Source: Archangium violaceum (GTDB lineage: Bacteria; Myxococcota; Myxococcia; Myxococcales; Myxococcaceae). From it: a stretch of DNA of 64,000 nucleotides. This document shows positions 41,157 to 43,099 of this stretch, piece by piece. Positions within the stretch are counted from its first letter, which is position 1; each line of letters opens with the position of its first letter. The notes under the pieces were generated by a model. It was not told the DNA's origin. It was given only the letters and a program-made list of their open reading frames with translations, and searched no databases. The stretch lies in assembly GCF_016859125.1 (NCBI RefSeq), contig NZ_CP069338.1, positions 11,349,501 through 11,413,500 on the forward strand, read 5' to 3'. A program made the position numbers and the translations under genes.

Positions 41157-42092
41157 TCACGGTCCCGTCTGTTGCCGCCTTCCGGCAGAAGCCTTGGAGT
41201 GGTTGGTGAAGGCCTGTTGGGTCAGCTGGACGTACTTCCCGAGGGACGCGGGATCCGACCCCAACAGCTTGTCCAGCTCGGCGTCCTGGGTGCCCTCGGC
41301 GATGGCGAAGCCGAGCTTCACCGCCATCCCCAGGTGGGACAGGGCCTGCTTCTTGTCGCTGATCCGGCTGTAGGCACAGGCCAGGTTGTAGTGGATGCGC
41401 GCATCACGCGGATTGAGCGCCCAGGCCCGGTTCAGGGCCTCGATGGCGTCGGAGGCCTGGCCCCGCATCAACCAGGCGGTGCCCAGGCCGAAGAAGGCCA
41501 CCCAGTTGCGATCGTCGTAGGAGAGGCTCCGCTCGAACTCGGCGGCCGAACCGCCCCAGTTCTTCTCCCCCAGCAGCCGGTTGCCCCGCTCCAGCGCCGC
41601 CTTGGCGGCCTCGGGGTTGCGCTTCTCCGAGCGCAGGCGCGACATGGCGGCTCCCCCGCCACGCACCGAGGACGCGGGAGGTGCCTCCGTCACCGGCTGC
41701 AGCACCATCAGGCCCCCCTTGCCCAGCACCGGCGCCTGACACCCCGCCCGAGGCCGCACGTAGGCCGTCAGCGTCCGATCCTCCGGGCTGAACAGGGCGA
41801 GGATGGGCAGGGTGTCCATGGTGGGGCAGGACGTCCCCTCCAGGCACAGGGTGAGTTGCCCCACCAGCACGTTGCCCTGGAGCACCCCTTCCAGCACCCG
41901 GCTCCGGGGGGCGAAATCGCAGGGGCCTCCTCCGGTGGTGAATGCCACGAGCCGATCCTTCTCCGTGCTCAGCTCCACCCGCCCCAGTACGCTCGCCTGG
42001 TAGCTCCCCTGAGGAACCGACTCCGCGCTGGCGGCTCCGGGGGCTGCGGCGACGAAGGCCGCGAGGCCGATTGTTCTGGATACGGACGCCAT
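41157..42092 (-). CDS. Exported TPR protein
   Basis: 311 residues. Signal peptide (1-23; TIGLAAFVAAAPGAASA) followed by a ~130-residue beta-rich domain with paired cysteines (GGGPCDFAP, LCLEGTSCPTM, RAGCQAP) and then three TPR units at about 180-285 (AKAALERGNRLLGEKNWGGS; NWVAFFGLGTAWLMRGQASDA; ARIHYNLACAYSRISDKKQA). Likely periplasmic scaffold. The ATG at 42092 is chosen for the signal peptide and a GGAGCGG upstream; ATGs at 42110 and 42113 are possible. Operon with the Ser/Thr kinase, which is cytoplasmic, so a direct interaction would require the TPR part to stay inside. Confidence 0.78.
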   Translation of the reverse strand: MASVSRTIGLAAFVAAAPGAASAESVPQGSYQASVLGRVELSTEKDRLVAFTTGGGPCDFAPRSRVLEGVLQGNVLVGQLTLCLEGTSCPTMDTLPILALFSPEDRTLTAYVRPRAGCQAPVLGKGGLMVLQPVTEAPPASSVRGGGAAMSRLRSEKRNPEAAKAALERGNRLLGEKNWGGSAAEFERSLSYDDRNWVAFFGLGTAWLMRGQASDAIEALNRAWALNPRDARIHYNLACAYSRISDKKQALSHLGMAVKLGFAIAEGTQDAELDKLLGSDPASLGKYVQLTQQAFTNHSKASAGRRQQTGP

Positions 42093-42152
42093 GGGTGGGA
42101 GCCGCTCCATCATAGGAGGGGGTCGGCTGGCTTGTAAACGTGCGCCAATGGC

Positions 42153-42181
42153 TTGACCCATCCCCCCTGCGTTCTTATCAT
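42153..42181 (+). promoter_or_regulatory. Strong sigma-70-type promoter upstream of the candidate 6S RNA
   Basis: TTGACC (42153-42158), exactly 17 bases, TATCAT (42176-42181). Among the best promoter matches in the window and not placed at a protein start: the next coding start is nearly 300 bases away. Start expected about 42188, giving a precursor with ~65 bases before the folded RNA. Confidence 0.65.
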
Positions 42182-42252
42182 TCCTCCAGCGATTCCTGGG
42201 TTTCTCCAGGAGTTTCAGGGATTTGCAGTAAGGAAAGGCTTGTTGAAGGGCT

Positions 42253-42442
42253 GTCCCCTGCGGGGCGCGTGATGCCCAGCAGAAATTCGAACCGATACGT
42301 CCATATCGGGGTCCGTTTCGGGCTCCATGTGCAAGCCCTCCCCTCACGGGATGAGGGAAGCCTACGGAGCCACGACTTCGAACCCCACCTGGCTTTTTTA
42401 GGGTTCAATGGACGCTAGGCACACGGCCATGCTGCGGGGGAC
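42253..42442 (+). ncRNA. ssrS: Candidate 6S RNA
   Basis: 6S RNA binds the sigma-70 polymerase holoenzyme by mimicking an open promoter. This ~190-base segment closes on itself: gtcccctgc (42253-42261) pairs with gcgggggac (42434-42442), followed by TTTTTCTT. Next inward, gtg-a-tgcc (42269-42276) pairs with ggcacac (42418-42424). A long apical arm has ggctcc/ggagcc (42321-42326, 42366-42371) and ccctca/tgaggg (42341-42346, 42352-42357). On the 3' side of the central open region sits the small hairpin gaaccc/gggttc (42380-42385, 42401-42406), as in known 6S RNAs. The gene for 5-formyltetrahydrofolate cyclo-ligase follows, the conserved ssrS-ygfA order. Alternative: a long leader of that gene. 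Confidence 0.65.
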
Positions 42443-42472
42443 TTTTTCTTACTCTTGTCGGGAGCGGGGCAG

Positions 42473-43099
42473 GTGGCGAGCGAGACGGTGGCACAAGAGG
42501 GGACGGCTCGGAAGGTGTCGCTGCGCGAGGAGCTGACGGCGCGGCGTAAGGCGATGACGCCTGACATCATCGACGAGCGGGGGCTGAAGGTTCAGGCGCG
42601 GTTCCTGGCCACGCCCTACTACCAAAAGGCGAGGACGGTGGCGCTCTACGCTCCCATTCGGGGCGAGGTGCCCACACGGGACATCCTCATCGCGGCGCTG
42701 CAGGACGAGAAGATCGTCTGCTACCCGCTGTCCCACGTCCATGGACGCATCCTGTCCTTCCGGGCCATCAAGTCCGAGGCCGAGCTGGAGCCGGGGCGGC
42801 TCGGAGTGCGCGAGCCCACCAACTCCGCGGAGCTCATCCCGGTGGACCAGATCGATCTGTTCGTGGTGCCCGGGCTGGGCTTCACGCGCGACGGCAAGCG
42901 ACTGGGCCGGGGTGGCGGCTATTACGACGCCACGCTCAAGGCGGCCTCGGCACGCAGCCGCCGGGTGGGGCTGGCCTTCGGCGATCAGATCGTCGATACC
43001 ATGCCGACGACGAATGACGACGTGGACATGGACCTCGTCGTCACCGAGTCGGAGACAATGCGCGGGCTCTACCGCGACTGGGATTTCCTCGACACGTGA
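42473..43099 (+). CDS. 5-formyltetrahydrofolate cyclo-ligase
   Basis: Converts 5-formyl-THF to 5,10-methenyl-THF with ATP (YgfA/MTHFS family). 208 residues with LREELTARRKAM near the N-terminus, ALYAPIRGEVPTRDI, the phosphate/folate loop LGFTRDGKRLGRGGGYYDATL and VGLAFGDQIVDTMPTTNDDVDMD at the C-terminus. Start GTG at 42473 is preferred because GGGAGCGGGG lies 8 bases upstream; a TTG at 42455 is the alternative. It directly follows the candidate 6S RNA. Stop overlaps the next start as GTGA, implying coupling with the YmdB-type gene. Confidence 0.92.
   Translation: MASETVAQEGTARKVSLREELTARRKAMTPDIIDERGLKVQARFLATPYYQKARTVALYAPIRGEVPTRDILIAALQDEKIVCYPLSHVHGRILSFRAIKSEAELEPGRLGVREPTNSAELIPVDQIDLFVVPGLGFTRDGKRLGRGGGYYDATLKAASARSRRVGLAFGDQIVDTMPTTNDDVDMDLVVTESETMRGLYRDWDFLDT

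Follow-up and report, generated by a model that had tools for sequence, protein, structure and literature searches.

What is encoded in the gap upstream of the 5-formyltetrahydrofolate cyclo-ligase gene (ygfA/fau) of this Archangium genome is the question raised by the 64,000-nucleotide stretch of DNA analysed here (the window). The first-pass annotation described the gap as 380 bases long and as containing a 6S RNA candidate. The length is confirmed, from the likely ATG of a divergent TPR-protein gene, the upstream neighbour, at 42092 to the likely GTG of the cyclo-ligase gene at 42473, and the candidate is borne out by a full-length match to the Rfam 6S model (RF00013) together with compensatory changes among relatives. 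The match lies at 42252-42444 on the forward strand and covers model positions 1-187 of 187, with 60.3 bits (E 1.9e-9) where the curated gathering score is 46.4 bits; the covariance-model scan that had been proposed for the locus thus returns a match above the gathering score, and the predicted length of 193 nt fits the ~160-200 nt expected of a 6S RNA. It is the sole Rfam match at gathering scores across the window, and a search of the whole 12,677,854-base genome with RF00013 gives a single 6S copy. The score is moderate, and several pairs in the match are non-standard. In our judgement it is close to certain that the region encodes the one 6S RNA of this soil myxobacterium, acting by the steps set out further below; judged by its sequence, the gene at 42252-42444 is well conserved and ordinary. 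An open reading frame of 92 amino acids (42140-42418) was judged to have arisen by chance because homologues differ by insertions and deletions that do not come in threes. Routine annotation would find this 6S gene by means of the Rfam model; in the literature searched, no study of a myxobacterial 6S RNA was found by title or abstract, and papers elsewhere are possible. The features of the locus are collected in Table 1.

Table 1. Features of the 6S RNA locus, in window coordinates.
Feature	Position	Strand	Basis or remark
-35 box TTGACC of 6S promoter	42153..42158	+	exact promoter in 17/51 loci
-10 box TATCAT, spacer 17	42176..42181	+	sequence, conservation
Predicted 5' leader of 6S precursor, ~64 nt	42188..42251	+	start placed from the -10 box
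Leader hairpin TCCTGG/CCAGGA, lineage-restricted	42194..42211	+	fold, conservation
6S RNA (ssrS)	42252..42444	+	RF00013 full length, covariation
Closing stem, 5' arm	42253..42261	+	fold, covariation
GAACC, 5' central bubble	42289..42293	+	can pair with GGTTC 42402-42406
CCGATA, predicted pRNA template start	42292..42297	+	T42296 equivalent to E. coli U44
Apical arm (would carry -35-like contact)	42309..42385	+	helices 4-7 of covariation analysis
Conserved small hairpin, 3' central bubble	42388..42403 (42388-42390 with 42401-42403)	+	helix 8
GGTTC, 3' central bubble	42402..42406	+	partner of 42289-42293; overlaps 3' hairpin
Closing stem, 3' arm	42434..42442	+	fold, covariation
T-run TTTTTCTT at 6S 3' end	42443..42450	+	possible termination/processing point
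5-formyltetrahydrofolate cyclo-ligase gene (ygfA/fau)	42473..43099	+	PF01812, 134.3 bits, frame read from 42455

For the 193-nt segment the predicted folding energy is -92.5 kcal/mol (z -4.66), a stability reached by none of 200 shuffles. The closing stem of nine base pairs, one of them U.G, is present as the annotation had drawn it, with the T-run directly behind. Conservation of the structure was assessed in an alignment (A1) of 51 homologues, 49 of them distinct, which make up 51 of the 53 matches among relatives, the window included; G052 and G055 were left out, and L084, which repeats G006, was also unused. The same 51 loci underlie the promoter and synteny counts given below. RNAalifold predicts 37 pairs from A1, with two-sided change at 20 of them; 93.3% of cells are paired as against 83.9% in shuffles, 180 cells are double-changed as against 70.1, and none of 500 shuffles reaches the observed value in any of five structure measures. 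When partners are slid by one column, pairing falls to 50.9-55.9%, a comparison in which the structure is favoured over the slid controls since it was derived from the same alignment. In other words, the stems carry the compensatory changes that a comparison of myxobacterial sequences had been expected to reveal, and the rod of the 6S family, with its closing stem, central bubble and apical arm, is recovered with covariation. On the 3' side of the bubble, the gaaccc/gggttc hairpin of the annotation does appear in the minimum-energy fold of the window sequence, but its 5' strand varies, and it was rejected as a conserved element, the alignment read by eye showing that it is not kept in relatives. 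The conserved 3'-side hairpin is instead the inner CCU/GGG of helix 8, with 95.2% of cells paired.

The two strands of the central bubble can also pair with one another, GAACC with GGTTC, and the Rfam model likewise contains a pairing between these strands. Across 25 distinct strand pairs the longest bubble helix has a mean of 6.12, as against 5.20 in shuffles, and none of 2000 shuffles reaches it; moreover, in other clades GAACC/GGTTC is replaced by GTGCCC/GGGCAC or GGGCC/GGTCC. In 25 of the 51 loci, the window included, the longest bubble helix is another register of 5-6 bp with G.U pairs, which ties with GAACC/GGTTC or exceeds it by one pair, and in those 25 loci the sequence does not decide between the registers. 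Because GAACC/GGTTC takes up bases that the 3' hairpin also needs, the helix and the hairpin are mutually exclusive. The bubble helix covaries and would be one of the bubble-collapse type.

Within the 5' strand of the bubble lies what appears, by sequence alone, to be the template start of a pRNA. The window reads GAACCGATA where ssrS of E. coli K-12 reads GAGCCGATA, such that G-x-x-CCGATA is kept minus two middle letters, and CCGATA places a T at nt 44 in E. coli and at mature nt 45 (42296) in the window. The E. coli pRNA start site is given as U44 in a passage of PMC8876501. A pRNA starting AUCGGUUCGAA is accordingly predicted from T42296, its sequence being 5'-AUCGGUUCGAAUUUCUGCUGGGCAU, while the E. 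coli pRNA, derived likewise, begins AUCGGCUCAGG. The predicted pRNA has GG at positions 4/5 and an A next to the start, both of which match the Gram-negative references in an excerpt of PMC8414754. Among the 51 loci, the template site is CCGAT in 42, CCGAC in five, CCTAT in two and none of these in the remaining two.

At its 3' end, the RNA gene runs close to the cyclo-ligase gene. TTTT stands at the 6S 3' end in 40 of the 51 loci. The likely GTG start of the cyclo-ligase lies behind GGGAGCGGGG, 28 nt past the 6S end, and is favoured because near relatives share both this GTG and the SET(V/A) frame that comes after it; further downstream come genes for a YmdB-like phosphoesterase and then a tyrosyl-type tRNA synthetase. 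The order of ssrS and ygfA to which the annotation appealed is found in 45 of the 51 loci, where the cyclo-ligase frame follows on the strand of the 6S, and also in E. coli K-12, and many relatives likewise have a short gap. The cyclo-ligase frames were sought by tblastn at E 1e-3 with the window's protein as query and the best match only, a search that a distant frame could escape. At this threshold, L005, L009, L012 and L015 have no cyclo-ligase within 1500 nt downstream; in L002 the best match lies upstream on the other strand, and in L014 a contig end 160 nt past the 6S cuts off the downstream region. The link, which is common and not universal in the 6S family, has been published, as excerpts of PMC2848244 and PMC4064990 record.

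It is this proximity, on the same strand and with a gap short in many relatives too, that would speak for reading the structure as a cis-acting leader of the cyclo-ligase mRNA, that is, a riboswitch-like 5' UTR with no free 6S. Against such a leader, the region matches the 6S model over its whole length and no riboswitch model, the pRNA template motif and the bubble helix are kept, and five of the 51 loci (L002 together with the four named above) have no cyclo-ligase found within 1500 nt downstream. A riboswitch or plain mRNA leader was rejected because RF00013 alone matches and because of these five loci, and we regard it as very improbable. Co-transcription as such is no argument against a 6S RNA, since the E. 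coli 6S is itself co-transcribed with ygfA according to a passage of PMC2848244.

The 6S RNA gene is preceded by a strong promoter-like sequence, TTGACC-17-TATCAT at 42153-42181, just as first annotated. The exact sequence occurs once in the 12.68-Mb genome, at the 6S gene, and its backwards control does not occur at all. With up to two mismatches there are two matches in the window, one exact and one with two mismatches, as against 0.61 expected, and at least two such matches are seen in 9 of 100 shuffles of the window. Among the 51 loci, 17, the window included, have the exact promoter within the 130 bases that precede the 6S. A scan of these bases, which gave just the best site per locus, picks this distant promoter as the best sigma-70-like site for the window; a second promoter near the mature 5' end was discounted, the best site being the distant one and nothing closer being evident by eye.

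The promoter region was compared further in an alignment (A2) of 16 of the 51 loci picked for an exact or one-off TTGACC-17-TATCAT, a choice by which A2 leans towards conservation; L013 and L046, which also have the exact promoter, were left out. The distance from the -10 box to the 6S is 67-75 bases in 15 of the 16 rows and 42 in L038. Elsewhere the best site, in several loci a weak one, lies 2 to 95 bases from the 6S, mostly at 23-40 or 45-63. From the conserved spacing in A2, the window is expected to have a leader of about 64 nt. The 6S is thus likely to be made with such a leader, which would then have to be removed, and a processed precursor is plausible because the distant promoter scores best and is conserved.

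The leader alone folds like its shuffles (z -0.45, with 61 of 200 as stable). Its tcctgg/ccagga hairpin, put forward in the first-pass annotation, is predicted by folding, but is whole only in the nearest lineages, with all six pairs in 9 of the 16 A2 rows. Covariation in it is weak: 46 of 500 shuffles reach its number of pairs with two-sided change, and a register slid by -2 outscores it. As a conserved element it is weakly supported and fails outside those nearest lineages. L038 (G015) keeps the promoter and the leader hairpin and lacks some 28 leader bases after the hairpin, from which that part of the leader seems dispensable. Next to the 6S promoter, a divergent promoter-like TTTACA-18-TATGAT was seen by eye on the reverse strand (42109-42138) before the TPR-protein gene; its -35 overlaps TGTAAACG, a stretch ahead of the 6S promoter that is identical in all 16 A2 rows. 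That the locus is a degenerate or inactive 6S relic, as its moderate model score with non-standard pairs might suggest, is scarcely credible when promoter, closing stem and template motif are conserved throughout the genus and in much of the family, and the stems show compensatory change.

The distribution of the 6S RNA was followed in four overlapping sets of genomes, under stricter filters by which weak matches are lost. Genomes with an RF00013 match number 53 of 59 among the relatives (a set that contains the genome of the window), 91 of 96 in the window's family, 126 of 145 in the order (19 being without a match) and 123 of 144 in a sample from the phylum at a completeness of at least 90%; in all four sets there is one 6S match per matching genome. 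The five family genomes without a match were re-examined with a single short 6S pattern only. In G060 the 5' part of the 6S gene runs into a contig end. The other four (G071, G010, G063 and G115) gave no RF00013 match and no match to that one pattern, and in them the missing 6S may be a real loss, a gap or a filter miss; G071 and G115 are rated 99-100% complete.

Three relatives from the window's family carry shortened 6S RNAs: 133 nt at L044:2958-3090 (+) in G006, 147 nt at L046:3025-3171 (+) in G013 and 130 nt at L048:1709-1838 (-) in G007. All three matches still span RF00013 from end to end, and what they lack is most of the apical arm, in whose place L044 and L048 have an 8-bp hairpin with a 6-nt loop and L046 has a stem of 7 plus 4 bp. 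The closing stem and the cyclo-ligase neighbour are kept in each; of their best promoter-like sites, that of L046 is strong and those of L044 and L048 are weaker. With lengths read by eye, 6S RNAs below 160 nt make up 3 of the 126 matches in the order and 1 of 123 in the phylum sample, again G006. The assemblies of G006, G013 and G007 are fragmented, at 670-1060 contigs, and loss in assembly is therefore possible; in other words, the shortened forms may be natural minimal 6S RNAs or assembly losses. Excerpts of PMC8876501 report that a truncated B. subtilis 6S-1 still cycles, with ~10-fold lower affinity, and that, in E. coli, binding could no longer be resolved on gels once the distal apical stem was truncated. 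A more far-reaching proposal, which we consider doubtful, is that the myxobacterial 6S is a variant in both biogenesis and size: the core lineages would make it only by way of a precursor, which starts at a single distant promoter, carries a conserved ~60-70-nt leader and has to be cut to mature, and the 130-147-nt forms of L044, L046 and L048 would have been kept by selection with most of the apical arm gone, even though the -35-like contact that the E. coli 6S needs lies in that arm. If real, the shortened relatives offer a test of how much apical arm a 6S RNA needs.

Returning to the 6S RNA of the window, its life would begin with transcription from the strong housekeeping-sigma promoter, whose conservation argues for its use, followed by 5' trimming of the ~64-nt leader and formation of a 3' end at, or close to, the T-run that immediately precedes the cyclo-ligase gene. 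The fold and covariation describe a rod with an open central bubble, which would resemble an open promoter. Once growth stops for want of nutrients, the RNA would be expected, as a member of its family and on the model of E. coli and B. subtilis, to bind the holoenzyme of the housekeeping RNA polymerase and hold it back. On recovery, the polymerase is predicted to copy the 6S from T42296 into the pRNA, after which the bubble would collapse through the covarying helix of its two strands, freeing the polymerase. The basic biology of this 6S RNA is expected to be ordinary. For Archangium and related bacteria, whose development is driven by starvation, the 6S RNA is now firmly annotated and its pRNA precisely predicted.

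Set beside known systems, the RNA stands closest to 6S/SsrS of E. coli (RF00013, ssrS b2911), with which it aligns along its length and shares the CCGAUA template motif at U44. In E. coli the cyclo-ligase gene (fau) also lies directly downstream on the same strand, at a gap of 75 nt as against 28 nt in the window, whereas the upstream neighbour is zapA rather than a divergent TPR-protein gene; the window further differs from E. coli ssrS in that its best promoter sits 70 bases upstream of the mature RNA. Like the window, 6S-1 of B. subtilis has a 3'-bubble hairpin and a central-bubble collapse helix, as an excerpt of PMC8876501 describes, and the mutual exclusion of the bubble helix and the 3' hairpin in the window resembles that in 6S-1 as described there. 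The pRNA start of 6S-1 is put at nt 40 in the same excerpt, as against a T at mature nt 45 in the window, a comparison of the numbering. Ms1 RNA of Actinobacteria is structurally related and binds RNA polymerase, according to a passage of PMC9130861. Ms1, however, associates with the core enzyme and lies beside other neighbours, whereas the region of the window matches RF00013 itself.
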